From: Sabellastarte sp. h YS-2021 | Taxonomy: Eukaryota; Annelida; Polychaeta; Sabellida; Sabellidae | Reading direction: 5' to 3' | Length of the DNA stretch: 64,000 bases | Assembly: GCA_964017235.1 (NCBI GenBank) | Contig: OZ024936.1 | Location: 10,764,496 to 10,828,495, forward strand | In this document: positions 16,423 to 44,839 of the stretch, piece after piece | How the letters are laid out: each line of letters opens with the position of its first letter | How positions within the stretch are numbered: the stretch's first letter is position 1 | Position numbers and translations under genes: made by a program | The notes under the pieces: generated by a model | Told to the model about the DNA's origin: nothing | Database searches by the model: none | Seen by the model: only the letters and a program-made list of their open reading frames with translations

Positions 16423-16426
16423 ATAC

Positions 16427-16441
16427 TGGTACCAGAAGTGT
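16427..16441 (+). promoter_or_regulatory. primer-binding-site-like sequence
   Basis: TGGTACCAGAAGTGTG begins 2-4 bases after the LTR. A TGG start is required to pair with the CCA tail of a tRNA primer, and TGGTANCAGA resembles the 3' end complement of initiator tRNA. The exact primer is not determined. Confidence 0.55.
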
Positions 16442-18003
16442 GTGATTTTATCACCCACTACATTCTGGTATTGGTTTTGTAGGTATTTCTGTTTATTTGT
16501 GATGAATCTTTAATTTTCGTTCACCACGTGAATTTGAACTTTGTTTGAATTTGCTTGGTGTTTTGTGGTGAATAAAACAGGTATTTCTTCGATTCATTGA
16601 TATTTTTACTTTGTTTATGTATAATATGTTGTAATTTAGTGTTTTGAAATTCACCTATCGGCAATTCTTAGCGTGAATTATCGGCAAATTTTAGCGTGAA
16701 TTTTCGTTTTTGTAGTGTGTTAATCGGCGATCTTAGCGTGATTTCCGGTAAACTTCTATAAAATATACACTATTTTACTTCATATTTGTAGGTATTTTGT
16801 TTTAAATTATTGTCACAAATATATTTGCTTTATAACAGTGTACGATTTCGGTACATTGATTTTGTAAATCTCATATTTGTGTGTGTGTGGCAGTATAAAT
16901 TTCTTTTTTCTACTGCTCTTTATTGCTTTTCTTGTATTATTTGTCATTTCATCGATTTGGTTGTCAGTTGTTTGTTACAACTCTGTGAGTGTATCGATCG
17001 ATTGGGTACTTTTTGTTTGCAAATAATTGGTCGGTCGTCGGCACCGTTATTTGGTAAATAAAATACCTGTATTGTTCCACACAACTGTATTTTTCCAAAG
17101 CAAAGTAGTGTTATTGGTACTGTGTATGTAGTACATTTTTTCTAGTGTGTGCATAGTACTTATTTTGAGGAAATTTGAAGTAAATATAGTATTTTTGACA
17201 GTAATTGTAGTAAAATATTTGTCTTTATAGTAAATTAGTAGCACATTTGCAAGTAAATTAAATTTTCTCTTGTAGAATTTTGTGGTAATTTTCTAGTGAT
17301 TTGAATTAAATTTTGAATAGTATTCTGAATATTATTTTAAATTATTTTTATATTGAACTTTGAAAGAAATTGCCCTTACTAACAGTAATTAAGACCCATT
17401 ATTTTTCATTTATGTGCATGATTTTATGTATTAGTTAAAAGTTGTAATAAAATTTTTATTGCGAAGATTTTTCAATAGGGGGAAAAAAACCTTTTTTATT
17501 GCATTACAATAAAGTAATTTTTTATTGCGTAAAAATTTATTTAACCTTGTTTAAAATTTATTGAGTTTCAATAACAAAATTAAATCCAGTCTGAATTACT
17601 TGTAGTGTAAATTGTATATTATTTATTTTTGGGACAAAAAATTAAGCTAGAGCATTTTCAGTAAATGTGAAAATTTTTGAACAGTATTTCAAATTTTCTT
17701 CATTTCATTTGTACCTTTTGTGATTTTTGCTAAATAACTTTTGCTTTGTCTTGCAAGTTATTTATTGTACTTTGACCTATATCTTTGCATTGTCGTGCAG
17801 ATTGGTTTTGATTTAATTCGGTTTAACTTTGCTCCGCCTTGCAAGTTAGATTATCGGATTTGTGTGTTATTTGTGTACAATTTCATTAATTGACTTGGCA
17901 TTGTTTTGCTAGTTGGTTATTGAATTTACAGTGTTTGTCAGTTTGTCGTTTGTCAGGTTTTTTGTTGGTTGAATTGAGTAAATTCACTTGAAAAAAACTG
18001 GAA
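16442..18003 (+). other. untranslated leader of the Gypsy element
   Basis: About 1.56 kb of AT-rich sequence with no open frame of note separates the primer-binding site from gag. It would hold packaging and translation-control signals, but none is recognisable by eye. Scattered upstream ATGs argue for a re-initiation, IRES or splicing route to the gag ATG at 18004. Confidence 0.6.
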
Positions 18004-21000
18004 ATGGCTACCGGTGGAAAAAAACCAGTCCACATTGCAGATGTAACCAAGGCTGATTTATTGTCCATAAAAAGCATTGGTGAAGCAAAGGCAGACAGGA
18101 TATTGAACCTGAGGGAAGAAAATGGTGGTACGCTGACCTTGCATGACCTTCAGAAGTCAAAAGTAGTCAGCAATTCGGTGATCAAGAAACTCCAACACTC
18201 AGGTTTCATCATATTCAGTGACAAAAATGTGTCGCCTGATAACAAGGTTTGCTCCAGTCAGGAACATCTTGTAGTTCAGGTTGGCGCGGAAGATTCCCGT
18301 GAGGTGGAGGAGATGGACGATGAAGATTTGGATGACCAGTATGCTTTCCCTGACAAAGAATCTTTGCATTTGTCGGGAACATCAACTGATCAGCAGAAGT
18401 TGCAGTCGCCAAAAGTAGAGTTGTCGGGCTCATCCTATCAGGTTTTTCCCAGTCAGGGAACTGCAGGACTTGAACCCGAGACTTCGGACTCTATTCCAAT
18501 ACTTACTGGAAAGCCAGGACTTGATGATATTTGGTCAGTTCTGATCGCAATCAAGGGAAACACATCGAAAACAGAGAACACTGTGAAGAAACTGGAATCT
18601 ACCCAGGTTGAAACCAGCAATAAAGTGACAAAGTTGTTCCGCACAGTGGAAGAATTGAACCATTCAGTTCATTCAACCCGTACGGCTCAACTTGAGCTTA
18701 AGTCCAGAGTAGATGGCTTGGATCAAAGAGTGACTGATGTCGAGGCAAAACATCAACAACTTGACAGAGTGGAAAGTGACACCACAATGTTGAAGAGTGA
18801 TGTGTCCGGTTTGACGTCTTCTCAGCAGGAAGTTATGTTCAACTGCTATAGGGATGTCTCGAACCTTAGTCAGCAGTTACAGTCCAAGATGCAAGAAACA
18901 AAGTCTAGGTTTTCAAGACTTGATTCTCGCTTGGATCGACAAGTTGAAGAGTACGACCAGCAGAAAACTGAGTTTTCTTCCTTGAAGTCCAGGGTGACAC
19001 AACATCAAGTGATGTTGGACCGGGAACTGGAGTCGGTCAAAGAAACTCAGAGATCCCAAGAGGAAGCGATAACTTCTCTCCAACAACTTGAGATTGCTGA
19101 AAACCAACGTCAACAGGAAGTCTCTTTGCTGCATCAAGATCTAGATGGTCTAGCTCAACAGGTGCAGGTTGTCAAAGAGGAAGTGCAGAATCTTAAGCAT
19201 GCTCCCTGTGACCACAACCCTTCGATCAGTAAACATCGAACTGGTGTGGAGCAGGATGTAGCTTTTCAAGCTTTACAGAAGGACTTGGAAAATTCCTTTA
19301 CAGAGTTATCCAAGCTTGTGACCGAGAACGAAGCTGCATTACAGAAGCATGAACAGATTTTAGTCCAGCAAAAGCAACAACTGGAAGGTGTGGCTGATGA
19401 GAATTGTCTTGATGACATTGAAAAAGCTTTCGAGCGAAATGTCAATGTCCAGACCAAGATATTTGAAGCCAAGCGTAAGCCTACATTGGAGAAAGTGAAC
19501 CGCCAGCTCAGAACCATGCGAGATACATTTAATTTGGAATATGAGCTTCCGTCCAATTTACCAGGTCTTCAGTGGACAGGATTGGACTTGAGGCCAGTTT
19601 CAGAGTTTAATTACCCAGGGTCTTCAGAAGAACAAACTATTGCGAAGGTTCCTCAGAAGCAGGTCAGGATGTCTCAGCCATTGTATACTCCTGTACCTAG
19701 CTATCTTAGGACAACTAGTAGATGTTCAACACCAAGGATTGAAGATCAGGATGAGTGTATTCAGCGTGTATCAGCTGCTATTCGTGAAAAAAGCCCAAAC
19801 GGGGTTTACAACAACAAGACACCACGTGTCAGTGTAGTCAGTCAGGTGAATGACAATGTCCATGTCTCATCTGACAGCTCTGAAGATGAAGTTCAGAAGA
19901 AAACCGTGACCCATAAAGACAAGACGAAGAGCAAGATTCACGTACCAAAGCTGTCCTTTGAAGGTGAACATTGGAATGTATACATTTCTCAGTTTGAGCT
20001 TGTGGCTAAGACCTTAGCCTGGACTGAGTCTGAGAAGATCCATAACTTTGCCATGTCCCTGAAGAAAGGAGCAGCAGAGTATTATGGAATCCTGCCAAAC
20101 CGTAAAGAAACGGACTTTGATTGGCTGAAGAAGAGATTCCAGGATCACTTTGGGAAGACAGAATCCCCTGCCGCCTTCAGATGGGAACTTTTACAAACTG
20201 AACAGCGTGAGGATGAAAATCTTGAAAAGTACTTGGCCAGAATGCAAGGAATGATAGTCTCCCTATTCCCAGATGAGCAGAAACAAGAGGCATGCAGTCC
20301 ATTTTTCGTGGATGCTTTCATGAAGGGCTGCCGTGACAAAGCAGCAGTGCTTGCAGCTGCTGGTAAACATCCCACCACCCTTGAAGATGCTTATAAATTT
20401 GTTCAGGATGCTATGCAACTACACAAAGCTATCCTTGGGAAGAAGGCTTCTGTGAGGAGTGTCAAATATGTTGAGTCTGACTCGTCAAGTCCCTCAACTG
20501 ATTCTGATACTTCTACCACATCAGAGGAAACTGTGGCTAAGACATTACAAGCCCGGGGCCATGCATCTAGAAGAGATGGTCGTCACCACAAGAAGTTTCA
20601 CAAGGTCATCTCGGGTCTACACAAAGTGTTGAAAGAAAATAAGAAGAGACAGGATGTACTGAGATGCTATAACTGTGGTGAACCAGGACATTTTGCACAA
20701 AATTGTCCCAGGAGGCGATATGATGGTTACGACAGAAAACAATGGTCATCAACCAGGAGCGATCAACTCAACTGGAGAGATCATCAGGGTTATGACCCAA
20801 CATGGAACTTACCTGGTTATCAGCATAATGGTCCCAGACGTGATAGGTACACACCACCGGGTACCCCTGAAAGGTTTCCTTCATCCAGTCAAGGATATCA
20901 GAGGAATATCTATGGCAGTCCCCGTTCTGGACAGTACCATCCATCACAAAACAGAGACTACAGAAGAAGTCCACAGCGGAGTGATGATTCAAACTGGAGG

Positions 21001-21159
21001 ACCAGCCCAAGAAGGGATAACCAATGCTACCATAGTCCACCACCACCACCTAGGACTACACAGGGTTTTAAAGGTAGTTCTGACTCCACCATGCGACCTA
21101 GCTCCATGGGTGAGAAGTCCAACGTAACCTTTTCTGACTCTGTAAAGTCTTTAAACTAA
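18004..21159 (+). CDS. gag: Gag polyprotein with N-terminal HhH-like domain, coiled coil, capsid and CCHC knuckle
   Basis: This is an intact frame of 1051 residues, far longer than typical Gypsy Gag. Residues about 9-75 resemble a ComEA-type helix-hairpin-helix unit (ADVTKADLLSIKSIGEAKA, then ILNLREENGG), a DNA-binding fold unusual in Gag. Residues about 150-475 are heptad-rich and Gln/Glu/Lys-rich, a long predicted coiled coil. Residues about 645-800 match retrotransposon Gag capsid (PKLSFEGEHWNVYISQFEL onwards). A zinc knuckle CX2CX4HX4C lies at C888, C891, H896, C901. The tail is basic and Arg/Ser/Pro/Tyr-rich, suited to RNA binding. Gag assembles the cytoplasmic particle around the genomic RNA. 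The frame ends in TCT TTA AAC TAA, which forms the frameshift site into pol. The ATG at 18004 is the first in frame, preceded by GAAA. Confidence 0.9.
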   Translation: MATGGKKPVHIADVTKADLLSIKSIGEAKADRILNLREENGGTLTLHDLQKSKVVSNSVIKKLQHSGFIIFSDKNVSPDNKVCSSQEHLVVQVGAEDSREVEEMDDEDLDDQYAFPDKESLHLSGTSTDQQKLQSPKVELSGSSYQVFPSQGTAGLEPETSDSIPILTGKPGLDDIWSVLIAIKGNTSKTENTVKKLESTQVETSNKVTKLFRTVEELNHSVHSTRTAQLELKSRVDGLDQRVTDVEAKHQQLDRVESDTTMLKSDVSGLTSSQQEVMFNCYRDVSNLSQQLQSKMQETKSRFSRLDSRLDRQVEEYDQQKTEFSSLKSRVTQHQVMLDRELESVKETQRSQEEAITSLQQLEIAENQRQQEVSLLHQDLDGLAQQVQVVKEEVQNLKHAPCDHNPSISKHRTGVEQDVAFQALQKDLENSFTELSKLVTENEAALQKHEQILVQQKQQLEGVADENCLDDIEKAFERNVNVQTKIFEAKRKPTLEKVNRQLRTMRDTFNLEYELPSNLPGLQWTGLDLRPVSEFNYPGSSEEQTIAKVPQKQVRMSQPLYTPVPSYLRTTSRCSTPRIEDQDECIQRVSAAIREKSPNGVYNNKTPRVSVVSQVNDNVHVSSDSSEDEVQKKTVTHKDKTKSKIHVPKLSFEGEHWNVYISQFELVAKTLAWTESEKIHNFAMSLKKGAAEYYGILPNRKETDFDWLKKRFQDHFGKTESPAAFRWELLQTEQREDENLEKYLARMQGMIVSLFPDEQKQEACSPFFVDAFMKGCRDKAAVLAAAGKHPTTLEDAYKFVQDAMQLHKAILGKKASVRSVKYVESDSSSPSTDSDTSTTSEETVAKTLQARGHASRRDGRHHKKFHKVISGLHKVLKENKKRQDVLRCYNCGEPGHFAQNCPRRRYDGYDRKQWSSTRSDQLNWRDHQGYDPTWNLPGYQHNGPRRDRYTPPGTPERFPSSSQGYQRNIYGSPRSGQYHPSQNRDYRRSPQRSDDSNWRTSPRRDNQCYHSPPPPPRTTQGFKGSSDSTMRPSSMGEKSNVTFSDSVKSLN

Positions 21160-24100
21160 CAGGGAGGGGTAATTCACCCATTGCCCCGACCCTCAACATG
21201 AATAATTGGGTGAATCACAAGACATGTAAGAGAGTTTGGTGTAGAAAAACACTAGAAAGTAACAAGGATAACCTTAGCGCTGTAGTAGATTGCACTGTTC
21301 AGGGTGTTAAAACCAAAGCACTACTAGATACCGGCGCTCAGATTTCCTTGATGAGTAGTAAACTGTATGAACAGATTGAAAACAAACCTGATTTAAAGGG
21401 AATGCTTAAATTGGAAGGAATTATTCAAGATGTGAAAATTGATGCAAAACTGTTCGAAGGAGTAACAGTCTCTTTCAGTGAGTCGCAATCATTCACATGG
21501 AAATTCTATGTAGCTAATATAGCTGAACCTTTAATTATTGGTTTAGATTTTCTTTGTCATTTCAAAGCTGTTTTGAATTTGGATAAAGGTACTCTCATGT
21601 TGAATAGGTATTCACTGAGGTTGAATCAATTCAAAACTAGCGAGGGGAATCAATACTCTTGTGTCCCAGTTATTGCCCATGAAAAATTATACCTACCACC
21701 TAGCAGTGTTTTAAGAACTAGTGCTCGGTTAGCAAAAACTTTGTCCGGTGAAATAGTTGTTTCACCATCCGGTAAAAACAAAGGTGTTATTCTACCCAAC
21801 ACTATTGTTCAAGCTGCAGAGATGATCCCACTCCAATTAGTCAATGACACAAATGTTCCAATCCTAATTCATGTTGGTCATGTGTTAGGATATGCGACGG
21901 AATGTGATGTTGTCCTGACTGAAAATTCCAAGAAGATCAACACTAGCAGTCTTGAAAAACATTCTAGCGATCTTGAGAAACCTTCTACCAGTCTTGAACT
22001 TCATACTAGTCTTCCAGATCATCTTGAAGGATTGTTCCAGCGTTCCAAGAAGTTCTTGAATGAAGAGGAAGCAACCATCTTGAGATCTTTACTACTGAAG
22101 TATCAGGATATATTTTCCAAGGGGAGTCATGATATAGGATGTTTCAAGGAAATCAAACACACCATAGACACTGGTACAGAACGTCCAGTCAAACATCCTA
22201 TGCGGCGTACACCTATGGGCTTTGAAGGTGAAGAAGAGGAGAACCTGAAGCAGATGTTGGATATCGGGGTGATCTCAGAGTCTTCCTCAGACTGGGCCTC
22301 TGCACCAGTTCTTGTGAGGAAGAGAGATGGCTCTGTCCGATACTGTGTGGATTACCGTTCCTTGAATGCCAAAACAGTCAAAGACTTATTTCCATTACCA
22401 TCCATATCACAATGTTTGGATCAGCTATCTGGTAATAGATACTTTTCCACACTTGATATGGCGAGTGGTTATTGGCAAATAGAAATTGATGAAAAAGATC
22501 AGCACAAAACAGCCTTTATTACTAAGTACGGCCTATTTGAACACAAACGGATGGCGTTTGGGCTTTGTAATGCTCCCGCCACATTCCAAAGAGTGATTCA
22601 ATTTGTCCTAAGAGGGTTAACATGGACCAAAACATTGGCATACATTGACGATGTGATTGTCTTAGGCAAAGACTTCACAGATCATGTTGCTAACCTTGAG
22701 TTGACATTTCAAAGGTTTCGTCAGCACAATCTGAAACTTAAGCCCAAAAAGTGTAGTCTGTTCCATACTGAAACTACATTTTTAGGACATGTGGTTAGTT
22801 TTGAAGGGGTTGCTGTGAATCCAGACAACATTACCAAAGTAAAGAAATGGCCAATTCCACAGTCCGTGAAGGATGTAGAGAAATTCCTAGGATTTGTGAA
22901 TTACCATCGTGATCATATCCAGGATTACGCAGGTCTTACTTCCATACTTTACAAACTGACGGGAAGTAAAGCAACTTTTGAATGGCAGGAGAGTCACCAA
23001 GAAGCATTTGACGCTGTCAAGGAGAAGTTGGTCATTGCGCCCATTTTGGCTTATCCGAATGCAACAGACATTTTCATTCTGGATACGGATGCTTCAGGAA
23101 CAGCAATAGGTGCTGTGCTATCACAACTGCAAGATGGTGATGAAAAAGTTGATTAGCTACAGAAGTTATGTTCTGACCACAGAACAACGCAAATATTGTG
23201 TGACCAGAAGAGAGCTCCTAGCTGTAATCAGATTCACAAGACAGTTCACTATCACTATCTTTTAGGCCGAAAATTCTACCTGAGGACAGACCACAATAGC
23301 CTAACTTGGCTTCTTCGTTTCAAGTACATAGAGAGTCAACTAGCCAGATGGTTAGAAGAACTGAGTCAATTCGACATGACCGTCCAACATCGACCTGGAA
23401 ACAGACATGGAAACGCTGATGGATTGTCCAGAATCCCAGAAGAAACAAGTTTCTGCAACTGTTACCAAGCTGGTGTTGACCTGGCAGATTTACCTTGTCA
23501 AGGTTGTAAATTCTGTACCAGGGCCCATCAGCAGTGGTCTAGGTTTGAATCTGATGTCGATGATGTCGTTCCTCTAGCCGTTAGAACAGCTTCTGTCTCG
23601 CCAGATGAGCCAGATGTCCAGTGGATTCTCTCTTATACAGAAGAAGAGTTGTCAAAACTTCAGCAGAATGATCCTTGTTTGAAAAAACTAATTGTTTGGC
23701 TGCAAACTGACATAACCCCTAGTCAAAGGGAGTTGTCCTTATGCAGCCCAGCAGTTAAGTATTTCTACCTCAATAGAAGTCGTTTAAGTTACCAAAACAA
23801 CTTATTATGGTACTCCTGGAAGAATGTCCTTGGGGAAAAACAATTATTAGTAGTTTCAGAAAGCCTGAAACAGGAAGTTTTATCCATTAATCATGATATA
23901 CCATTAACTGGACACATGGGTATCGCAAAGACGCTCTTGCGTATCCGAAAGTCTTTTATTTGGTATAAGATGTCCAGGGATGTTGAACTTTTCGTGAAAT
24001 CCTGTCAGGTGTGCAACAGGAGTAAAAAAGCCAAAACCAAAGCCAAAGCAGGACTTGGACAGTACCACGTAGGATCTCCATTAGAACGTGTGCATGTGGA

Positions 24101-25220
24101 TATTCTAGGTCCCTTCACTCCAAGCACCAAAGGTAACCAATATGTCTTGATGATTGTGGATCAGTTCACTAAGTGGCTTGAATGTTTTCCATTACCACAT
24201 CAGAATGCAGAAGAAACCGCCCGATGTATGGTTAATGGATTCATCTCGCGTTTAGGATGCCCAGTGGAGATTCACACTGACCAAGGAAAGAATTTTGATG
24301 GCAAACTGTTCGCAACTGTCTGTGATTTGCTCCAGATTACCAAAACAAGGACTACACCCTATAGACCATGCTCCAATGGTCAGGTAGAGCGTTATAACCG
24401 CACCCTGCTGCAGTTAATTCGGTGTTTCCTGAAAAGCAATCAGAAGTCCTGGGATGAACACCTACAGCAACTAGCAGGTGCTATTCGCTCAACCGTCAAT
24501 AGACACACTGGATTTACCCCGAACATGATGATGCTTGGCAGAGAAGTCATGTTGCCAGTTGATTTGATGTTCGGCTCTATCGGTCAAGAAGAAACAACTT
24601 CTGCGGAATATGTCACAAAGCTACAGCAAATTCTTCGTCAAGTCCATACCCTTGCAAGGGAGTCCTTGCAGTCCAGTCAAGAAAGACAGAAAAGGGACTA
24701 TGACCTCAAGTTGAAAGTGACTACGTATGAGATTGGTGATCTCGTGTATATCCTTGATTGAGCTGGAAAAATTGGCATAAGTCCTAAGTTACAGCCGGTA
24801 TGGAAAGGCCCATATGTCATCTCCAAGGTTATTTCACCTATTATTTTTGAGGTAGCTGACAAGAGGAAGTCATTTGTGCTACATCATGATAGGTTAAAGC
24901 CTTGTAAAGATCGTGCCATTCCTTTGTGGATTCGCAGAAAACGAAGTAAAATTTTGAACGACCTTGACCAAGAGGATCCTCAAAATGAAGATGATTTCTG
25001 TTTGGATTGGCTATTCGAAAATGAGCCAGATGATACAGATGTCAGTCTGCCAGGATACTGTCAGAAGAAAGTACAATTGTTTCCAGATGACCCAGTTTCG
25101 CCAGAATCTACGCTCGAGATTGAACAACATCTTGATTCTGGAGATCAGCTACCTGAATTACAGCCCAGCAGAAGTGGTCGTGAAAGGAGGAGACCGCGTC
25201 ATTTGCAGGACTATATTTAA
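21138..25220 (+). pseudogene. pol: Pol polyprotein (protease, RT, RNase H, integrase), broken
   Basis: Pol is read by -1 frameshift from gag; its first ATG is at 21198. The protease has DTG at 21327. RT contains YCVDYRSLN, LDMASGYWQI and the catalytic YIDD at 22641-22652. RNase H starts near FILDTDASG (about 23075) and resumes with RTDHNSLTWL. Integrase has an HHCC zinc region (about 23888-24030) and the D,D35E triad at 24099, 24279 and 24387, then a GPY/F-like segment (WKGPYVI, then VLHHDRLKP) and an acidic tail to 25217. Lesions: a one-base shift at about 23151 that brings the stop at 23154-23156, a compensating shift near 23247, and an in-frame TGA at 24759-24761 before the GPY/F part. All catalytic residues I looked for are otherwise present, so the decay is recent. 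A sequencing error cannot be excluded for the shifts. Confidence 0.9.
21150..21193 (+). promoter_or_regulatory. -1 ribosomal frameshift signal, gag to pol
   Basis: The heptamer T TTA AAC sits at 21150-21156 in the correct gag phase, directly before the gag stop TAA. Slippage by -1 enters a frame open from 21138 that runs into pol. Four bases after the heptamer AGGG-A-GGGG (21161-21169) can pair with CCCC-GA-CCCT (21184-21193), a two-part stem with a 14-base loop. TTTAAAC is an established slippery heptamer. Confidence 0.8.
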
Positions 25221-25379
25221 GTAGTTAAGACTTAGATAAGATTTGGTGGAATTTCCTAGTTAAGTGCATGAGGGTTTGGTGTTGGTATGACTAGTTAAAG
25301 TCCACTAACTGCTATTACCCATTGAAATGTATGGATTCCACAGTGCTTATCTTGATTTTTCCTTTCTACAGGAATTAAA
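25221..25379 (+). promoter_or_regulatory. pol-ORF3 spacer with candidate 3' splice site
   Basis: The spacer ends in TTGATTTTTCCTTTCTACAG (AG at 25370-25371), a strong polypyrimidine tract and acceptor, only eight bases before the ORF3 ATG at 25380. In retroviruses and envelope-carrying Gypsy elements the third ORF is expressed from a spliced RNA. The matching donor candidate is GTGAGT at 16404. Splicing is inferred. Confidence 0.5.
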
Positions 25380-27951
25380 ATGGCAGACAAGAAAGAAGTC
25401 ACTTCAAAAAATCACTCAAACCAGAGATCAAGTTCACATACTGACACGGATAGATCTAGCCACAGATCTACTTCCACAAGTCGAAGATCAGGATCTCATA
25501 ACCGCGAAAGATCTGATCAGAGATCTTCAACTGTCACAAGTCAACCAGACCAGGGTAGATCTAGTTCAAGATCTGCTCAATCTTCTACTTCATACAGATC
25601 TAGACCAAGATCTGTGGTAACCAGAACTGAAGGAGGCCCTACTGAGCAAACCAGGTCAGAACGTAGGGTTACATTTGATGTACCGCCAAGACGAAGAAGG
25701 CATTCTGTCTCTTGTTCTAGACGTACAGTTTACTCTCGTTCAGAGTCTACTCAGTCTTCAAGAGCACGGGTACATGAACATTCACCTGCATCTTCAACTC
25801 GTTCACTCAACGAGCAGGTGATAAGGATGCTGAAAGAATTGTACAGTTTTGTGGATTTCAACACCATTAAGCGCGTTGTTGAAACTACAGCATCAAGCAT
25901 GGAAGTCTACAGCCAAGGACTGTTGTTGGAAACTAGCAGTAGGAAAGTTAGGGAGATGATGGCAGCAGCTTGTGGTCTCAGCGGCGCCTGCCTCATCCGC
26001 ATCTGTTCCTGTAGTATCTGCTCCTCGTGCAACAGTCGTCACCCAGCCAAAGGAGGTTGTAGAGAGTACCAAACCAAAGGTCACCATTCCTAAAGAACTG
26101 AAACCAAAGGTCACCATACCTAAAGAAAAAAGCGACAAGGAACCACCAAAGAAGGTAACTTCATCTACTAAACTGGTTAGGGAAGTTACTATTAAAGATG
26201 TGAATAACAACCATGCCAACACTTTAAAAAGATCATCCCCTGAAACGTTGGAAGTGATTGTTCCTAAGAAAAAGCAGAAGAGGCATGCTTGTTACATGAC
26301 CAACTGTGGCCAACCATCGCCCAGTATTAAAAAACATGTCGTTGGGAAGCATCTGTCAATTGCCTTCGCCACTTGGAAGGAGATGCCCAATGAAGAAAGA
26401 ATGGTCCGTTATAACCAATCTTTGATGTCTCTGGAAGCAGAACTTGGTTTGTCCAACCATGATGAGTTACTGCAGCTTGTTGTAAAAAATAAGTGGTTTC
26501 CTGTTGACACCAGGTTCACTATTCCTGAGGAAGATGCCAAGTTTGTGAAAGCTTTTCACCAGTGGCTGACCGGGAATCAACTGACGTCCAAACCAATTGT
26601 GGACCCCCCCAATTGCGTTGCTGTCCTTACGAACTGTAGAGTTTTTTCCACTGTTCTCAATTGCATTGGGGAGAAGGTAACATTACCTAGGCAGTCTTTC
26701 GAAACAACAAATCTCGAGGCTGAAAACCAGGATGTCCAGTCTATTTCAACTGTGGATACACCAGTTCAGGATGTTCCAACAGATGTCCAGGTTGTTCAAC
26801 CAGTCCAGGTTGCTCAACCAGAAGTTGAAGGAACCAAGGATGTACCAGTGGAAGAGCAGCCAATGGAGGTGGATCAGGGTAACCAGTGTGAATCTGGGGA
26901 TTTAGCAAGTAGTCTTGCTCCCTCAGAGGAAGCTGTTTTACTGGGTTCACCTTCTGAGGATGTGAGGAGTGTTAGCTCTTCAATACTAGAGAGTCCGCCT
27001 AAACCCAAGGTTGTGAAGGATATTGGTACCCCTTACGAAGAGGCAGAATGGGTGCAAAGAAGGACCAGTTTCCTGAAGGTGAAAAGCAGGGACAGAGTGA
27101 GCTTCATCGACTCTCATATGCACTTGGATAAACTGAGGTGGATCAGTCATTGTCGCGATATTGATACTATCCTAGACAGAGGTCCAATGCCGGCAACTCC
27201 AGTGTATCTTGAAGCCGTTGTTGCAAACTTTTGTCATGAAGCGCCAAGTAAGGAACTGAGAGAGATGTGGAAAAGAGACTCCAGAATTTTCCACACGCAC
27301 GGTCTGCACCCCAAACTCGCCCATACTGCCACTGACGAGGATTTCGAGAGGGTTAGAACAAGCGTCATCAAGGATCCACGTTGTGTTGGCCTTGGTGAGA
27401 TTAGATTTGACTTCAGTGGCCACTTTGGAAAATTTAAAACTCAACAAACCCTGCTTTGTAGGAAGTTCCTACAGATGTTTGTTAGGGAAGAATTGTACCA
27501 CCACAAAGCCATTGTGATTCACTGCAGGGACAAGGGAAATCGTATGGATGCTTATGGAACCTGTCTCAAGGTCTTTGAGGAGGAGATACCTGCATTCCAT
27601 AGAGAGGATATAAACCTTCATTTCCACTGTTTTAACGGGGGTATGTCCACGCTTCGCGACTGGTTGGCAAGGTTTCGTAGAATAAGGATTGGAGTCACTG
27701 GTTTGCTTTTGCGAAAGGACCGAAATCCAGAACTTGAAGCTGTCGTGGAGCACTTGGATTTAGATCAGATCCTGTTAGAAACAGACTCTCCATACTTGAC
27801 ACCCCCAGTTCATGGAAACTGTGCCTACAATACCCCTTATGGTCTTGAGGAAGTAGCTCGACGTGTAGCTCAACTGAAAGACACAACTATCAGGGCAGTG
27901 CTGACCACTACCAGAAAGAACGCTGCAGATCTCTACGGTCTAAAGGTTTGA
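25380..27951 (+). CDS. third ORF: Arg/Ser-rich region, zinc-finger-like motif and TatD-type DNase domain
   Basis: The frame from ATG 25380 encodes an Arg/Ser-dipeptide-rich, highly basic region followed by a helical stretch (SLNEQVIRMLKELYSFVDF), then shifts by +1 at about 25960-25975. The second frame runs to 27951. Counting from 25972, a C-x4-C-x9-H-x4-H motif lies at C107, C112, H122, H127, followed by an acidic Pro/Val-rich linker. A complete TatD-family metal-dependent hydrolase spans about residues 377-656: H382 and H384 (SHMHLDK), E476 (GLGEIRF), H517 (VIHCRD), H552 (HFHCFNGG) and D605 (LLETDSPYL). TatD enzymes are 3'-5' exonucleases or DNases; the closest layout I know is a long N-terminal region plus TatD, as in animal TATDN2. 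It lies inside the element, between pol and the polypurine tract, in the envelope position. No signal peptide or membrane segment is seen. Without an ATG in the second frame before about 26299, the +1 shift is either a mutation or a recoding site. A role in clearing cDNA ends or competing DNA is speculative. Confidence 0.85.
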
Positions 27952-28399: not shown

Positions 28400-28412
28400 A
28401 AACCGGGAGGAA
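28400..28412 (+). promoter_or_regulatory. polypurine tract of the Gypsy element
   Basis: AAACCGGGAGGAA lies directly against the start of the 3' LTR, where plus-strand synthesis is primed in LTR retrotransposons. It is short and interrupted by CC. Confidence 0.7.
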
Positions 28413-28611
28413 TGAAGTGAAGCTGCCGGGTATTTTCGAATGGAAGTCCGTTCGCCTACCGTTTGAGTTTTAGCATCTCCCCACTGGAAGTGAAGAACAG
28501 GAAATGAACTAAGCACATTCAGTTATCTGTGCATATCCAAAGAGAAAGGACCTGAAAAGGAAATCCAACTACATCATTACAGATAACTACTGGTGAGTCT
28601 GGTATTTTACA
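28413..28611 (+). repeat. 3' LTR of the Gypsy element
   Basis: It is nearly identical to 16224-16422, with one difference seen near the start (GTATTTTC here, GTAGTTTC in the 5' copy). It also carries the GTGAGT donor-like motif at 28593. The following bases are the AT-rich target repeat and the resumed B2 sequence. Confidence 0.92.
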
Positions 28612-29012
28612 ATAATATACATAACCAGTTTGGAGTTTATTATCATACATAATATTAGCACATTAGTTAACGCAATTAGTCTTGTTATAACATATGTTAA
28701 TCCACTACTGTTGTCCATAATTACAACTTTAACATGTACATCAGCCTAGAGCAATCATATGGCAACAACTACTACTATGTTATTACTAACAGTTTATTTA
28801 CACTAGTTACAAATATAGCTTGTGAAAAAGCGTTTCAAGTTGTTCAAACTGTTATAGTTTACTGACTTTAAGGTGAAATCTTAAAGTGTTTTACAAACAT
28901 AGACTAAAAGAGTTAAGAATAACACTTAAGAGTGGATAGTGTCATTTAATAATGAAACATTAGTAGGATATAGTATTAACCCCACATATAAAAGAGAAAG
29001 AAAAAGCCCAAA
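28612..29012 (-). repeat. repeat B2 of the Ngaro-like element (main part)
   Basis: It matches B1 (about 29459-29854) with a few substitutions, from ATAACCAGTTTGGAGTTTAT to AAAGAAAAAGCCC. The remaining 47 bp of B2 lie at 16177-16223 on the other side of the Gypsy element. About 50 bp of unmatched sequence separates it from A2. Confidence 0.88.
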
Positions 29013-29413: not shown

Positions 29414-29854
29414 CAGTTGAAGGAGACCAAATAGATAAGACAAAATTAAAATTATAATATATATAACCAGTTTGGAGTTTATTATCATACATAATATTAG
29501 CACATTAGTTAACACAATTAGTCTTGTTATAACATATGTTAATCCACTACTGTTGTCCATAATTATAACTTTAACATGTACATCAGCCTAGAGCAATCAT
29601 ATGGCAACAACTACTACTATGTTATTACTAACAGTTTATTTACACTAGTTACAAATATAGCTTTTGAAAAAGCGTTTCAAGTTGTTTAAACTATTATAGT
29701 TTACTGACTTTAAGGTTCAATCTTAAAGTGTTTTACAAACATAGACTAAAAGAGTTAAGAATAACACTTAAGAGTGGATAGTGTCATTTAATAATGAAAC
29801 ATTAGTAGGATATAGTATTAACCCCACATATAAATGACAAAGAAAAAGCCCCAA
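29414..29854 (-). repeat. repeat B1 of the Ngaro-like element
   Basis: It starts CAGTTGAAGGAGACC and is the uninterrupted counterpart of B2. It therefore records the empty target of the Gypsy insertion: AATTATAATATATATAACC near 29450-29475. Confidence 0.9.
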
Positions 29855-29863: not shown

Positions 29864-30874
29864 TTAGGTTGTAGAAATTAATTTAGCAAAGGTAGTTGGT
29901 ATGGTACTAGCCGCTTTTGGTGTGTTTCTCAAGTATGACCATATAGCATCACTCTTCCAATTTCCATGCTGCTTAATCTTATTTAAGTCAACATCATGAT
30001 TAAATGCTAAAGAAGCACCGCTCCTTCTAAAAGAGTGGAATGTGTAAACTTTAGGATCTAAGCCAATAGAAGTAGCGGCTAGTTTTAGAAAGGAACGAGC
30101 TTTGAATGCAGTAAGATGTTGCCATTCATGCTTAATGAAAATTTAGAATAAGGGGAAATTTTTATCAGCTGGTACAGAGGCCAAATATTGCTTAAAAGCT
30201 GACACTGGGCACAACAATGGATCACTAAGTTGAGGAAGCTGTACCACTTGAACATGGCCTGAAGTTTGCATAGTCTTGGCACAAGTCATAATAAGATGTA
30301 AACCTGGGGGACCAAAAACTAAGTCATTCTGAATAAAATGACGGGTTTTGTCAAATTGGGCAACAGCATTTGGAAGAAGGGAAGCCAGCCTAAAGAAGCC
30401 AAAAAAGGCTGTTAGAAACAACGCTGTATACAGTTTAGCATGAGTATACCTTCGAATAGCACACATCAATTTTCGAAGCATAGGTACTGAGAAAACACCT
30501 GTGATTCTAACATTCAAAGGGGCATTATTCTGCACAGATTTTACAAATAAATATACTTTTCTAGTATGAAATACATAAGTTGGCCACTCATATAAAGAAA
30601 AGAAATGTTTTAATGTACTTAAATGATTTCTCAAAGAAGCAGCTCTTAAACTATTCTGTACCAAATACTCTAGATATGACAATACAGTCCTTGAAGTACA
30701 GGGAAGCTCCAACTTCAACACAATAACAAATGCCAGAAATTGTCGAAAGGCAGCCATGTAAGCAGTTCTTGTCCTAGGTCGAAGGCCTTCCTCTAGTCGA
30801 GTAACCGCTTGACTGTGGAGCCAGGTGGCCGCGCCAGAACCTGCAGCAGAAGGAACAGGGCAGCAACACGGCAA
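29864..30874 (-). pseudogene. tyrosine recombinase of the Ngaro-like element, one nonsense codon
   Basis: The first part (30874-30146) has the SAM-like N-terminal half and the catalytic Arg in FFRLASLLP. An in-frame TAA at 30143-30145 interrupts it. The frame then continues to a TAA at 29864-29866 with the rest of the catalytic set: HSFRRSG (HxxR), HGNW and Tyr in IWSYL. Enzymes of this kind integrate the circular cDNA of DIRS/Ngaro elements. Just upstream on the minus strand, TGTTCCTTCTGCTGCAG looks like a splice acceptor. The only lesion seen in this gene is the single nonsense codon. Confidence 0.88.
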
Positions 30875-31016
30875 ATTTGATTAAATTACATGTAATTATA
30901 CTGTAAGCCAAACTGCACTGCAGATATAATATGTTAAAGTTCATTTCATCATAAGCATGGCCACAATTTTAAATCTGAAAATTCGGAATTAACATATCTT
31001 CAGTAATATTTTTCCA

Positions 31017-31457
31017 TCAACATTTCTTCAAGTATTGCACTACTGGACCATTCTGCGGCTCGTAGATTCCCCACCTAGACAAGGTATCAGCATTTACATA
31101 ATGTATACCATATATATGCTTTACGTGTATATCAATGTTATATGCTGCAGTATAGTACCATAAAGTCCTAGTACAGGCCATTAGCCAAGGATCCCTGATA
31201 CGATTATTCTGAAAAGCATTTACTACTGCCATGTTGTCACAGTAAACCGTAACATCAGCATTCTTCCATTTATGACACCAAACCCTTACTGCCAGGACAA
31301 TATTGGCTGCTTCTAAATGAACAATAGAAGTAATATTTTTAATACTTTGTAATACATTACAAACGTAAACTTCTTGATCAGCATATGCACCAACCTGTTG
31401 TAAAGATGCATCTACAAAAACCTGAAATTTAGGAGAATTTTTTGTATGAATTTCCAC
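31017..31457 (-). CDS. RNase H portion of pol, Ngaro-like element
   Basis: The segment contains FQVFVDASLQQ (first catalytic Asp), HLEAANIVLAVRVW (Glu), YCDNMAVVNAF (Asp) and NADTLSRWG, the pattern of the RNase H domain of YR retrotransposons. It is the continuation of the RT frame at 31475-32722, from which it is separated by a one-base loss in a T run near 31478. It degrades the RNA strand of the RNA-DNA hybrid. Confidence 0.85.
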   Translation of the reverse strand: MEIHTKNSPKFQVFVDASLQQVGAYADQEVYVCNVLQSIKNITSIVHLEAANIVLAVRVWCHKWKNADVTVYCDNMAVVNAFQNNRIRDPWLMACTRTLWYYTAAYNIDIHVKHIYGIHYVNADTLSRWGIYEPQNGPVVQYLKKC

Positions 31458-31474
31458 ACTGCCATTAAATATAT

Positions 31475-32722
31475 CTAAAAAGCATTAAACCATGATAAAT
31501 CTTTAAAGAAAGACAGTGGCAAAGGTGTATAACCTTTCATTGGTGTATTATGTAAAACTTGAAGTATTCTGTTTAAAAATATATGAAATGGTTTAACACA
31601 TCTGTGTATGTAAAGTAGTTTACCCGTACGTTTTTGGAGCTGATTTCTGGTAGCCTGCACTTGGGTGCTCCAATATCTACATAAATTTTTTATATTTTCC
31701 AACTTATCATTTGGAATGGAAATAACACCATCTTTAGCATTAATCTGAATACCAAGACAGGTAACCACGTGATTAGGTGGTTCCAATTTTTTCGAATTTA
31801 TAGGTAAGCCTAAATCAGCTAAAATATTTTTAACCGACATAAAATGACTATGTGCCAGGTCAGGGGGAGCTACCCCAAGGTAATCATCCAAATAATTTAT
31901 AATCCATATATTTTGGGAACGTAACGCATGCGTAATTACGTCAGTTGTCATCTGGCATGCCGCGGCTCCACTTTTCATTCCGAATGGAACCGATAAATCT
32001 ATGTAATTTTCTGATCCCCAACGTAATCCCAATACAGGATAGTCCAATGGATCCATACATAGATTACGGAAAGCTCGTTCCAGATCAATTTTAAAGAGCA
32101 AGGCTTCAGGACCCAATTTTCTAATTTTTTGTATTATCATATCAATACTAGGATACTTGAGTATAAAGTTAATATCTTCGAACATGTTATCAGGTATACA
32201 ACTGTTAACACTTTGGCCCATAGGCCAGGATAAATCCACAATTACACGAACCCCCCCATCTGGCTTATTTCTGGCCATTAATGGTAAAAAGTGTGTATTA
32301 GTAAAGGGCTTGCTGTCGAAAGGACCAGCCATTGCTTGTTTCTGAACTTCTGTTGCAAAGTATTTTGCCACACCATTGGGATTTTGTAAGGCAGATTTAT
32401 GATTATCTACAGTTTCATTATATTGGAATAGCTTATAATCCAAATTCAAAGGGAAGCCATATTCCAAATATTGACCCAATATTTTGAGGTCATAATTTTT
32501 AAGAATATATTTCCAGTTTTCAATTTTCAAACCAGATGGAACCCTAATCTGGGCTCCTAGATAATTGGGTTTTTTAAACTTAGCCACTTTTGTATGCATT
32601 TCGTTAACCCATGCAATAGTATTGGAAAATTGTATAACACTAGATTGAGCAGCAGGGATGAACCTTGGTATATTACTTGGTATAAACCCCAATTCACGGC
32701 TAGTAGGCCACACCATGGCCAT
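31475..32722 (-). CDS. reverse transcriptase of the Ngaro-like element
   Basis: This 415-residue frame holds the RT palm and fingers: LPLMARNKPDGGVRVIVDLS, LFKIDLERAFRN (first catalytic Asp), VPFGMKSGAAACQ and the YLDD box in INYLDDYLGV, then thumb-like segments ending DLSWFNAF. The order and wording are those of DIRS/Ngaro RT. The coding sequence continues upstream in another frame (see 32727-33399) and downstream into RNase H after a one-base shift. Confidence 0.9.
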   Translation of the reverse strand: MAMVWPTSRELGFIPSNIPRFIPAAQSSVIQFSNTIAWVNEMHTKVAKFKKPNYLGAQIRVPSGLKIENWKYILKNYDLKILGQYLEYGFPLNLDYKLFQYNETVDNHKSALQNPNGVAKYFATEVQKQAMAGPFDSKPFTNTHFLPLMARNKPDGGVRVIVDLSWPMGQSVNSCIPDNMFEDINFILKYPSIDMIIQKIRKLGPEALLFKIDLERAFRNLCMDPLDYPVLGLRWGSENYIDLSVPFGMKSGAAACQMTTDVITHALRSQNIWIINYLDDYLGVAPPDLAHSHFMSVKNILADLGLPINSKKLEPPNHVVTCLGIQINAKDGVISIPNDKLENIKNLCRYWSTQVQATRNQLQKRTGKLLYIHRCVKPFHIFLNRILQVLHNTPMKGYTPLPLSFFKDLSWFNAF

Positions 32723-32726
32723 ATTT

Positions 32727-33399
32727 CCCCCCCCTCGACCAAAGTATCCAGTTTTAAAATACTATGTGAACTTGCATCCATTGCAGACGAATTATCGTGC
32801 GCAGTATCATAACTATTATCATACAATGTAAAACTATCATTGAAACTAAAATAACTAGCTGAGCTACTAGAATAATGCATATATTTAACGCCACTACCAT
32901 AACCCATAATACTAAGTACTTGACTACAAGAGTTGTGGGGACCAATGCCAGGTCCTGAACACATAAATCCATGACTTTCAACCAAGCAACTAGCCTGATA
33001 CTGTCGGCTACAAGTGCCAATTTCCTGACCAATGTTAATACAAACCAATTTTGATGCAAGATCTAGTAAGTTGGTGTTGACAGTTCCAGCACTCACCTGG
33101 CACAAACTTAGCACATACTCAGGTGAGTACAAGGCATACAGATTAGTAAATGAATTGACACTTGCAAACAGCTTAGTGTGATCAAAAATACAACTGTATT
33201 TATGTAACCATGAACTGTTATTTGTCTGATAACCTTCTGCATTCTGTATTTCAATACATTTAACATTTTTGGTCCTGGTCAGGACCTCACCGTCAGTACT
33301 GTTAACCATAACCAGACTGACAGAACTTGGGAGTGCTACTGCATGACAATTATGGTTGTTACTATTGTGCCAAGACAGGGCATCTATTGAACTATTCAA
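32727..33399 (-). CDS. N-terminal part of pol, Ngaro-like element
   Basis: An open frame from an ATG at 33399, rich in Ser, Asn and His with many Cys, shows no recognisable domain. Its useful part ends at a run of eight G on the minus strand (32734-32727). A -1 step there, G GGG GGG in phase, enters the RT frame. This may be a recoding site or a simple length change in the run. Its position between gag and RT matches the unstructured pol N-terminus in the related plus-strand element at 52032. Envelope was considered and rejected: there is no signal peptide or membrane anchor. Confidence 0.55.
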
Positions 33400-33595
33400 T
33401 ATTGAATAACAAATACTACTGTTATTATAAAATTCTGCAATAAATTTTTTTGTCGTTTATGTGGTTCATTAACTGAGCTTGTAAGAAAACGTAAGTTCCA
33501 CATTTAGAGAGATATTCAAAACTATTAAACCCGCTGATCTTGTTGTTTAGGTTTTGTACTGTCTGATTTTGTGTTTGTTGATTGATTTTTGGCCC

Positions 33596-34558
33596 TCAAG
33601 CATTTAACAGAGGGATGATCAAGTTTTTGTGAGTTTCACACATACAAAATGAGCAGTAATGTTGATACAATACACTGCCTACTGTATGATCACTTTCATA
33701 ACGACAATAACCTTTATTATAATGACTACACACTTGCATTTGAATGCCAGATACTGAGCTAGGTTTACTTTGTTGCACCATTCTCTGTGTATAACGATTT
33801 TTGATTTTTTCTATGAGATCTAATCTTGACCAGTCAACCCTACCTTTTTCAACCTCTTGCAGGACTGCTGCATGAGCTCGCCTTGCAGTACCACTAGAGA
33901 GTTCAACTGCATCTTGCAGTAACAATGTCAAATAGTACAACATATTTTCTCTAGTTGTGTTACTATCTTGCTCAATTACACAGTACAACAATCCTTGAAA
34001 CCATTGCTCTAACAAAAGCTCATCATAAGTAGGTTGCTTTTGACCAACAAGTACAGAGCAGTAATCTTGGGGCCAACTTATGGGACCTTTAACTTTAGAC
34101 ACACCAGATCTAAATCTACCTGACTTAAGTGCAGTATTTGGCTTACCTTGACTATCCCCCCTTGACATATGCTGATATTCTCGAAGCCTCCTGTCAACTT
34201 CCGCCTGTACTCTCGAATCACTCTTCAGATCTTCGAAGCTTGGCAACTTGGCTGAATCTTTGGCTTCTGAATTCTTGGCTACTTTAGGGGAGCTCTGTGC
34301 AGAAGGAAGTGCTGAAATCTCATTCAAACTGACACGTTCCTCCTGTTTCTGTAAGCGAAGTTCCTGTTCCTTCAACTTGCCATCCATATCTTTAACCACT
34401 TCCAATAATTTGTCCAACTTGTTAGCAATGGACATATCAGGCTGCGTCAGCACCTCCTCGGAAGTAATATCTATGGAAGGGTTGTCATCCCCAACTTTAC
34501 TTTTATTACTGTTTTTTCCAGCTTTCTTCTTGTCTTTAGTAACAGATTTAGTAGCCAT
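33596..34558 (-). CDS. Gag-like protein of the Ngaro-like element
   Basis: A 320-residue frame starting ATG at 34558. The N-terminus is Lys-rich, followed by a coiled-coil segment (LDKLLEVVKDMDGKLKEQE). The core has the signature shared by all YR elements in this window: ISWPQDYCSVLVGQ, then ENMLYYLTLLLQDAVELSSG and RAHAAVLQEVEKGRVDWSRL. A CCCH-like zinc region follows (CSHYNKGYCRYESDH, then HYCSFC). The last conserved residues (HPSVKC) are displaced to the -1 frame at an A5 run near 33620, probably a mutation. It would be the particle protein of the element. Confidence 0.75.
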   Translation of the reverse strand: MATKSVTKDKKKAGKNSNKSKVGDDNPSIDITSEEVLTQPDMSIANKLDKLLEVVKDMDGKLKEQELRLQKQEERVSLNEISALPSAQSSPKVAKNSEAKDSAKLPSFEDLKSDSRVQAEVDRRLREYQHMSRGDSQGKPNTALKSGRFRSGVSKVKGPISWPQDYCSVLVGQKQPTYDELLLEQWFQGLLYCVIEQDSNTTRENMLYYLTLLLQDAVELSSGTARRAHAAVLQEVEKGRVDWSRLDLIEKIKNRYTQRMVQQSKPSSVSGIQMQVCSHYNKGYCRYESDHTVGSVLYQHYCSFCMCETHKNLIIPLLNA

Positions 34559-35018: not shown

Positions 35019-35939
35019 GAGTGCGTTTATTAATTAATGGAGAACAGGCAATATTACCTCCGTTCGGCCAGCTGTGACACAATACAAGTACCAGTTCAAC
35101 TTCAAGTTCGAAATACTGATTTTATGTCTACAGTTTGGAACCAAAATAATGATTCACATTCGGATTCTATCAGCGATTCAAATGATTCCCAGAGTGATTT
35201 GAATTGGTCCGGACTGCTGAATTTGTCCAATGATGAAGGAAATTCAAAATTATCCGGTGAAAATTCCACAAAAAGTGATGAAACTGGAAATCATATGCAG
35301 GCTTCTAGAAGCAGTGCTGATTTCAATCCACAATTACTGATTAATCAACAAATCTTGGATCAGTTACAAACTATTGGTCGTAGATTTGACAAATTGGAGC
35401 AAAAACCGGTGAAAAAATCCTCGGATCCGAAAAAAGTAAAAAATAAAATAAAAAGCAAACAAACTTTGGTTTTGAAAGAGCACACCCCCCATGCTATCAA
35501 ATGATAGTGGTGTGGTAAAAAATACTGATCTGATGGATCAATCAATCCCAAACCTGGCTTCCCTTAGGCAAGATATTCAAATTCAGCAACAAGTCCAACA
35601 ACATCTCGCAACACTTGCACAACAACAAGTCTGAGATATGGATCATAAAATTAAATCTCAAAGGGGAGGTCCAGATGTCTTTGTAAAAAATAGGGTATGT
35701 TGGCCCCATGAATATGTCTTATCGGGATCTACAAAAGAAAGGGTCACCTATGATCAATCAACTGTCGTTCAGTGGGTTTCCAGCTTTTGTCGCAACATGC
35801 AGGAAGAAAAAAATTCAAAAATGAGAGAACATATGTTAGACTATTTAGTTTCTTTGATGGATGATGCTACAGATTTTTCCTGGGGTGTGGCAAAGGCCAG
35901 TCACGCCGTGCTTCTGTGCAGAATGGAGCAAGGTGAAAT
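35019..35939 (+). repeat. left arm of fold-back element, inner segment
   Basis: It is an inverted copy of 36663-37582 at roughly 97-98% identity by eye. Similarity stops abruptly after GGAGCAAGGTGAAAT. It continues the outer segment 15892-16176. Confidence 0.88.
35037..35939 (+). pseudogene. truncated gag copy in the left arm
   Basis: The first open part (35037-35504) starts MENRQYYLRSASCD and includes a coiled-coil segment. A shift at a C run near 35487 and a stop near 35634 break the frame, and 35638-35939 then encodes the conserved core (WPHEYVLSG, MREHMLDYLVSLMDDATDFSWG, AVLLCRMEQGE). The copy ends where the inverted arm ends. The same breaks occur in the right-arm copy. Confidence 0.8.
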
Positions 35940-36124
35940 GCTGTACAAGAGCATCACTGCTTTCATTGTTCATTTGTGATTGGATTTTTTGAATATTTTT
36001 GATACCACTAGAACCTTTGTCGTGCGTAAGAACATTTGTGTTGAACAGAATTTGACCTATGACCTTGCAGGTTCTTGATATCGTTATTTCTCCGAATGGA
36101 ACAGTTTGCTACATATTTTTGAAG
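35940..36124. other. single-copy centre of the fold-back element
   Basis: About 185 bp with no match to either arm and no open frame of note. It lies between the truncated left gag and the 3' end of the right gag, so it marks the breakpoint of the inverted duplication. Confidence 0.6.
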
Positions 36125-37564
36125 TCACTGTTCCGGACTAATTTTTTGGATGGTTTGACCAACAATTTTTTTGCTTGTGTGACATTTTGGAATTTGATTT
36201 CCTACAACCACTAGAGCATAAGATCTGCCATTGCATTTATTATTGAACGCATTGGCAGTGTGAAGCCATTTTTGCCAAACATTTGGTTTTGGTAGAAAAC
36301 CTTCAGAGTTTCTGACAGACGACCAAAACACCATGCGTTTCTGGAGGGTATGGTTTTGACCAGTAACCATACCCTTATTCACTCGTTTTTTATTCCTACA
36401 TTCACTCTCAGGGTGGGCAAATCTCTTGCCAGATGTGGCAAAACATGAAGAACATACGTGTTTGTATGACACACCCTTTGTCTCATGTGTTTTTTGGTGT
36501 GTACATGAGTTCTGGTTGTAATACAAACATGGCATGGACTTGCTAATTTTTGTGAAAGATTTGTTATTATTCTGGGCATTTTTAGGACCTGCAGGTTGCA
36601 CGTGCTTCTGTGCATTTGCTCTTCTAATTCTATCAATTTTTTCAATCTGGCTATAATCTTGGATTTCACCTTGCTCCATTCTGCACAGAAGCACGGCGTG
36701 ACTGGCGTTTGCCACACCCCAGGAAAAATCTGTAGCATCATCTATCAAAGAAACTAAATAGTCTAACATATGTTCTCTCATTTTTGAATTTTGTTCTTCC
36801 TGCATGGTGCGACAAAAGCCGGAAACCCACTGAATGACAGTTGATTGATCATAGGTGACCCTTTCTTTTGTAGATCCCGATAAGACATATTCATGGGGCC
36901 AACGTACCCTATTTTTTACAAAGACATCTGGACCTCCCCTTTGAGATTAATTTTATGATCCATATCTCAGACTTGTTGTTGTGCAAGTGTTGCGAGACAT
37001 TGTTGGACTTGTTGCTGAATTTGAATATCTTGCCTAAGGGAAGCCAGGTTTGGGATTGATTGATCCATCAGATCAGTATTTTTTACCACACCACTACCAT
37101 TTGATAGCATGGGGGCTGTGCTCTTTCAAAACCAAAGTTTGTTTGCTTTTTATTTTACTTTTTACTTTTTTCGGATCCGAGGATTTTTTCACCGGTTTTT
37201 GCTCCAATTTGTCAAATCTACGACCAATAGTTTGTAACTGATCCAAGATTTGTTGATTAATCAGTAATTGTGGATTGAAATCAGCACTGCTTCTAGAAGC
37301 CTGCATATGATTTCCAGTTTCATCACTTTTTGTGGAATTTTCACCGGATAATTTTGAATTTCCTTCATCATTGGACAAATTCAGCAGTCCGGACCAATTC
37401 AAATCACTCTGGGAATCATTTGAATCGCTGATAGAATCCGAATGTGAATCATTATTTTGGTTCAAAACTGTCGACATAAAATTAGTATTTCTAATTTGAA
37501 GTTGAACTGGTACTTGTATTGTGTCACGGCTGGCCGAACGGAGGTAATATTGCCTGTTCTCCAT
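36125..37564 (-). pseudogene. longer gag copy in the right arm
   Basis: From the ATG at 37564 it matches the left copy, including the C-run shift (about 37110) and the stop after CAAGTC (about 36968). Beyond the arm limit it continues to 36125 with the CCCH-like zinc region (CLYYNQNSCTHQKTHETKG, HVCSSC) and AHPESECRNKKR, which closes gag in related elements, then about 80 residues that may be the start of pol. The fold-back element therefore derives from an already damaged gag. Confidence 0.8.
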
Positions 37565-44835: not shown

Positions 44836-44839
44836 ATGA

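Follow-up and report, generated by a model that had tools for sequence, protein, structure and literature searches.

Gag and pol are generally considered sufficient for an LTR retrotransposon, and env is the usual third gene. In the errantiviruses, the env-bearing Gypsy elements, this third ORF follows the integrase and is expressed from a spliced subgenomic message. Extra ORFs in Gypsy elements, enzymatic ones included, are already known: in the part of the report on which we draw, Ty3/Gypsy elements of the orchid Phalaenopsis carry an additional ORF for an AlkB-type m6A RNA demethylase, for which the authors propose a link with host surveillance (PMC9289625). Human TATDN2, a TatD protein, has been reported, in the portions of the two studies used here, as an exo- and endonuclease of R-loop RNA (PMC10707325, PMC12709183). 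In the open literature, among the papers listed and with Repbase outside the scope of the search, we found no report of a TatD gene in an LTR retrotransposon; this negative is a weak one, and it agrees with a first-pass annotation of the locus studied here, which was aware of no standard Ty3/Gypsy layout that includes such a domain. Three candidate precedents were rejected on the relevant portions of the papers: in PMC7545183 the word is TaTDP1, which is unrelated, PMC5408686 concerns a retrocopy, and in PMC5840709 TatD is only a gene neighbour. PMC8905726 contains neither the term TatD nor the term nuclease, and PMC10294476 does not contain nuclease. A figure legend in the giant squid genome study places, in the Hox region, a TATDN2-like ORF among transposon-like ORFs (PMC6962438), and, as far as the legend goes, this may be the same phenomenon, unrecognised.

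The stretch of DNA analyzed here (the window, 64 kb) contains a Ty3/Gypsy element of about 12.4 kb, all of whose features lie on the + strand. It is flanked by LTRs of 202 bp (16224-16425 and 28413-28614) that differ by 1 mismatch, the 5' LTR (TG...ACAATA) containing a donor-like CTG/GTGAGT at 16401-16409. The sequence after this LTR, TGGTACCAGAAGTG (16427-16440), is a candidate primer-binding site that we take to be tRNA-Leu-like. An AT-rich leader of about 1.6 kb (16426-18003) precedes gag; it has, by eye, an acceptor-like TTTGTCGTTTGTCAG near 17957 and may be an intron itself. The gag ORF (18004-21159, 1051 aa) encodes a CCHC knuckle (E 3.5e-7) and gives a weak PNMA match in Pfam, as well as a weak N-terminal helix-hairpin-helix match (HHH_3, 18004-18200, E 2e-4, below the curated cut-off), a feature that to our knowledge is unusual among Gypsy gags. 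Pol is interrupted in the window copy, as is the third ORF. Its first part (21198-23156) carries the aspartic protease, RT and the start of RNase H, its second part (23196-24761) carries the end of RNase H, H2C2 and the integrase core up to an in-frame stop, and an open stretch of the pol frame past this stop (24876-25220) reaches the end of pol. The Pfam matches are thus ordered gag-PR-RT-RNaseH-IN, the order of Ty3/Gypsy. A splice-acceptor-like tract ending in CAG (25353-25371) lies 8 nt 5' of the ATG of the third ORF (ORF3), and a short purine tract, GGGAGGAA (28405-28412), stands directly before the 3' LTR. The element is bordered by a target-site duplication, ATAT or AATAT, whose length depends on the LTR end chosen. 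An insert-free version of the target site is present at about 29450 as a paralogous repeat copy, the second member of a 300-nt direct repeat (97%; 28612-28911 and 29454-29753). The interrupted frames were analyzed as they stand, without repair.

Other elements share the window. A cluster of DIRS-type-like ORFs, with RT and tyrosine-recombinase-like parts recognized by eye, covers 30143-34558 (-), 35037-37564, 41433-45727, 49412-55415 (+) and 56056-58480, with long ORFs at 52032-55415; the part checked in Pfam, 30143-30874, gave a phage-integrase SAM-like match. A non-LTR-type reverse transcriptase with zf-RVT lies at 58806-60992 (-), and a 152-aa ORF with DUF7587 (E 1.3e-7) at 13136-13594 (+).

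The first-pass annotation had described, after the integrase and before the 3' LTR, a frame at 25972-27951 with all TatD metal ligands, preceded by a zinc-finger-like CCHH motif and an Arg/Ser-rich head. Coordinates, order, ligands and finger were all reproduced; the head is present (25380-26093, with a helical segment MLKELYSF...REMM) and, in the window copy, lies in another frame than the TatD part. The 659-aa main part comprises a basic cluster, the CCHH finger with a helical domain, a linker and the TatD domain (PF01026, residues 379-656, 27106-27939; E 4.7e-36, 124.9 bits against a curated cut-off of 27), the only domain of ORF3 that exceeds its Pfam cut-off. Alignment places HxH, E, H, H and D, which we take to be the TatD metal ligands, at H382, H384, E476, H517, H552 and D605. 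The finger reads C107-x4-C112-x9-H122-x4-H127, within a finger and helical domain at 26260-26690 that has a PPNC..W motif, and is adjoined by a basic cluster, PKKKQKR, presumably a nuclear signal. Arginine and serine make up 38-48% of the first 130 residues in three copies. No transmembrane-like stretch was seen in seven proteins, where the highest 19-residue Kyte-Doolittle mean, a hydropathy measure and not a dedicated predictor, was 1.19-1.57. Because P0001 (98% identical to the window protein), L018 (a single 858-aa ORF) and others are open across the border between head and TatD part, the frameshift is, judging from these relatives, a lesion of the window copy that splits one gene. Undivided ORF3 measures 797-887 aa in several relatives.

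A model built from the relative P0005, not from the window copy (pLDDT 64 overall), predicts a TatD barrel. It matched TATDN3 (Foldseek E 1.5e-12, TMt 0.77) and E. coli TatD (E 5.6e-12), with TATDN3, TatD and YcfH in the range 1.5e-12 to 2e-11 and identities of 16-27% among the best 17 structures. The finger and helical domain was modeled from the window sequence, using an alignment of its relatives (pLDDT 86), and here the fold search gave no convincing match. When P0021, P0022, P0023, P0028, P0029 and P0033 are included in the alignment, the C, C, H, H residues and the neighbouring P-P...W motif show little or no variation; these six proteins are 16-22% identical there and likewise carry TatD at the C-terminal end. 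By this alignment, the two-domain design of finger and TatD is one that extends beyond the window family.

Is ORF3 a regular gene of these elements? A public protein search with the window protein returned 38 proteins, the nearest cluster having 70 members. In the 1.786-Gb genome from which the window comes, it gave at least 100 matches, merged by eye into at least 65 copies (67 scored of 1086 candidates). More distant relatives gave at least 84 (P0011), 63 (P0039) and 52 (P0016) matches listed, many of those of P0016 being 99-100% identical; the counts for P0011 and the window family overlap, as P0011 also finds window-family copies at 42-49%. The PF01026 profile gave 147 scored matches of 649 candidates. 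We then took the integrase as the query, and the best 83 of 7246 candidates were scored (71-100% identical). Of these 83, 72, the window's own included, were followed by a TatD match on their own strand at a distance of no more than 7 kb, while the control positions (opposite strand, or same strand upstream) held one among the matches listed. This count rests on the top-scored matches listed, with TatD fragments merged by hand. Among the matches listed, co-location was seen for 37/43 integrases at 85% identity or more, and for 35/40 below. The nearest TatD belonged to the window family in 36 of the 72 listed, to P0016 in 12, to P0011 in 11, to P0039 in 9 and to another PF01026 match in 4. The spacing from the integrase was 562 bp in 6/12 P0016 cases and 573 bp in 5/9 P0039 cases, again among the matches listed. 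The remaining 11 of the 83 integrases, which have no TatD in the lists, may be truncated, carry an unlisted TatD or truly lack one.

We also read the DNA of the best 40 of the 65 copies by score, the window's copy among them. The flanks that the first-pass annotation had proposed as a check were found here, in the window's own genome: an integrase upstream in 30 copies and an LTR downstream in 39. ORF3 is uninterrupted over at least 750 aa in 12 of the 40, and some elements combine an intact ORF3 frame of more than 800 aa with a pol frame of about 1350 aa. Two copies, L017 and L054, have an extra LTR-like stretch upstream of ORF3 (in L017 just before the head) and are probably rearranged or shortened copies that retain ORF3. 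At least four TatD groups, namely those of the window family, P0011, P0016 and P0039, have ORF3 on the 3' side of the integrase. ORF3 is a standing third gene of a Ty3/Gypsy clade and not cargo; of the two possibilities initially considered, cargo or a working part of the element, the second is borne out by the 72 co-locations and by the selection described below.

Further TatD matches were seen away from the listed integrases. Tandem duplications of TatD-bearing units form arrays at G000 C2:3520142-3536350 (five, about 3.85 kb apart) and C19:30984941-31064358 (four, about 26.2 kb apart). Another group, found at 14 places in G000 (for example C7:115294892), has open frames of 676-682 aa and some of the best PF01026 scores; it is not co-located with the 83 scored integrases, and may represent a different type of element or an expansion within the host.

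Among the 40 copies read, the ligands are retained in 39 (H382), 40 (H384), 38 (E476), 37 (H517), 36 (H552) and 39 (D605), and the CCHH residues are intact in all 36 copies that cover the finger. Relatives only 35-40% identical also keep the ligands, though with exceptions: in the P0039 row the first H is replaced by N, and P0019 has K at E476. We estimated dN/dS (Nei-Gojobori) from 8 of the 12 intact ORF3 copies, spanning the subfamilies, with L016, L019, L021 and L027 left out. The TatD domain is under purifying selection. Its dN/dS was 0.08-0.37 within the window family, where changes are few, and 0.12-0.14 against L042 at a dS of 0.32-0.35; the pair L018/L042 has 28 nonsynonymous against 50 synonymous changes (dN/dS about 0.13, dS 0.34, Fisher P 1e-17). 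Against L044 and L045, dS was saturated and dN was 0.22 (L018/L045: pN 0.19 against pS 0.80). Higher values came from L052, which leaves the common frame towards its end (0.59 when compared with L042, 0.25-0.26 with the window family), and from the pair L044/L045 (0.53, few changes). The finger domain gave 0.06-0.08 in deep pairs with estimable dS, and the RS head up to 1.12. From the low dN/dS and the retained ligands and CCHH residues we conclude that something persistent needs the ORF3 protein with its active site; the simplest candidate is the element itself. The conserved finger favours a constant target, and the fast head favours adapting localisation or partners.

ORF3 does not always share the history of the pol gene beside it. 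Between 24700 and about 25300, L045 matches the window at 91-100% identity; through ORF3 its identity drops to 17-78% per 100 bases. Its integrase dS is 0.03 to L020, L022 and L023 and 0.044 to the window, while dS between L045 and L020, L022 and L023 is saturated in both TatD and finger. L042 is about 90% identical to the window through pol to 25200, 39-75% over 25400-26800, and about 90% again to the end. At the protein level, a 12-copy subfamily with an 831-aa ORF3 shows 98-99% identity in the integrase (9/12 listed), 67-68% in the TatD part and 50-52% in the N-terminal part. ORF3 is thus a mosaic whose breakpoints lie either at the border of pol and ORF3 or between the finger and the TatD domain. 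A single evolutionary rate cannot yield a near-identical pol together with a saturated ORF3, whereas recombination or conversion between lineages can, and ORF3 versions appear to have been swapped between element lineages.

How could such a gene be expressed? The donor CTG/GTGAGT is exact in 36 of the 37 3' LTRs that cover it (39 matched), including LTRs only 81-88% identical overall, and it sits in the best-conserved block of the LTR, with 15 of 194 nine-base windows equally or more conserved; other constraints could also explain this conservation. An acceptor-like pyrimidine-rich tract with CAG, 8 bases before the ORF3 ATG, is present in 29/40 copies by patterns defined after the sequences had been inspected. 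These fall in three subfamilies (24, 2 and 3 copies), at an equal distance from the ATG and with different surrounding sequence in each. The pairing of an LTR donor with an acceptor before ORF3 suggests a spliced, env-like ORF3 message. ORF3 resembles the errantiviral third gene in following the integrase and in its presumed spliced message; unlike env, it has no transmembrane-like stretch.

The comparison of retroelement TatD with TATDN2 that had been suggested at the outset gave a tree of 34 TatD domains in which 12 rows of the window's family form one clade (96/100), TATDN2 another (97/93) and bacteria a third (100/99). In this tree, from which TATDN1 and TATDN3 were left out, the window-family TatD is not nested in the TATDN2 clade; the split between the window-family group and bacterial TatD is weak (35/75). 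Thirteen rows had been labelled retroelement by sequence. Those tied to Gypsy are P0001, P0003 and P0005, as kin of read copies, and P0011, P0016 and P0039, by co-location; P0006, P0017, P0018, P0020, P0041 and P0046 carry the label without such a tie, and P0033, labelled in the same way beforehand, groups with P0021, P0023 and P0028 (99/97). Animal TATDN2 shares with ORF3 a long head and a C-terminal TatD domain. It differs in being a host gene, in its separate clade and in that no finger/helical domain was noticed by eye in the sequences compared. Since the TatDs of the retroelements fall outside the TATDN2 clade, the analogy of substrate is a loose one. The single-domain nucleases TatD/YcfH and TATDN1/TATDN3 share the fold and the metal ligands, but their matched chains are about 240-300 residues long and lack both the RS head and the finger. 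As far as the portion of the report used here goes, the orchid AlkB elements resemble the TatD element in that an additional ORF encodes an enzyme acting on nucleic acids and is retained by many members of one lineage; they differ in enzyme and kingdom and are titled a recent acquisition (PMC9289625), whereas between ORF3 subfamilies synonymous sites are saturated and ORF3 has been exchanged.

We consider it fairly probable that ORF3 is a standing third gene, expressed from a spliced mRNA, whose TatD nuclease acts on intermediates in the replication or integration of the element itself. What speaks against this reading is that most LTR elements manage to replicate with no gene of this kind. 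In our model, splicing from the LTR donor to the acceptor directly 5' of the ATG would give the mRNA for ORF3, the RS-rich head together with the basic cluster would bring the protein to the nucleus or to the element RNA, the finger and helical domain would select the target, and the TatD domain would be a metal-dependent nuclease. The most likely substrates would be RNA strands paired with DNA in hybrids, remnants of the primer or the PPT, or cDNA 3' ends. Replication intermediates of the element are the favoured substrate by analogy with TATDN2. Given the RS-rich head, the PKKKQKR cluster and the lack of a membrane-like stretch, the best reading is that ORF3 would be a nuclear or particle-associated nuclease for element hybrids or cDNA ends. 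RNA or RNA:DNA would be at least as likely a substrate as DNA, because of the RS-rich head, the basic cluster by the finger and the RNA-hybrid activity described for TATDN2 in the portions of the reports used (PMC10707325, PMC12709183).

The main rival, to which we give a minor share of the probability, is counter-defence: ORF3 would degrade those nucleic acids or signals of the host (R-loop RNA, piRNA precursors, cytosolic DNA) by which the element is silenced or sensed, and the swapped N-terminal module would provide target recognition in an arms race. Head and finger are indeed the more divergent, exchanged modules in L042 and L052, with TatD more conserved, different ORF3 versions sit on near-identical pol backbones, and the host-surveillance link proposed in the orchid report, in the part drawn on, points the same way (PMC9289625). 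However, the low finger dN/dS in deep pairs is unexpected for an arms-race surface, only the RS head being fast, and no host target of ORF3 is known. A role in RNA handling, with ORF3 exporting or packaging unspliced RNA and the TatD fold retained as a binding module and not as a nuclease, is improbable in our view: it would account for the RS-rich head, and if ORF3 has a spliced message, unspliced RNA would presumably also have to be exported, but each ligand is kept in 36-40 of the 40 copies and in relatives at 35-40% identity, as catalysis requires, P0039 and P0019 being exceptions. That the window copy reflects a one-off capture of a host TatD, with no other copy carrying the ORF, or a separate mobile element nested in it is very improbable and refuted for the window family: the genome is rich in TatD matches (of 649 candidates, 147 were scored), some of them away from listed integrases, and L017 and L054 have their extra LTR-like stretch (2/40), but co-location in 72 of 83 listed integrases, the flanks of the copies read, the equal spacing in many copies and the saturated dS between subfamilies all contradict it. 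Equally implausible is a degenerate envelope gene, which position and possible spliced expression would allow and which the hydropathy values (at most 1.57), the Pfam result and the TatD fold contradict.

What would a third gene acting on the element's own intermediates mean for these elements? Tentatively, we propose an animal Gypsy clade whose third gene is a second nuclease, unrelated to RNase H. This gene would be expressed through a spliced message like that of env, and whole ORF3 versions, or only the RS-head and finger half, would be traded between element lineages at preferred borders, much like env among retroviruses. Since the finger-TatD design recurs in divergent proteins, it may define a class of nucleases of selfish elements that is widespread and as yet unnamed. 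In these elements a nuclease-like protein occupies the place of env, with its active site selected across saturated synonymous divergence and in recently amplified copies. Annotated TATDN-like genes in such genomes may be transposon ORFs, which calls for caution. The elements provide a natural experiment in the modular exchange of accessory genes, and a handle on which step of retrotransposition can be limiting in animal cells, be it the removal of hybrids, the maturation of cDNA ends or evasion of control by the host.
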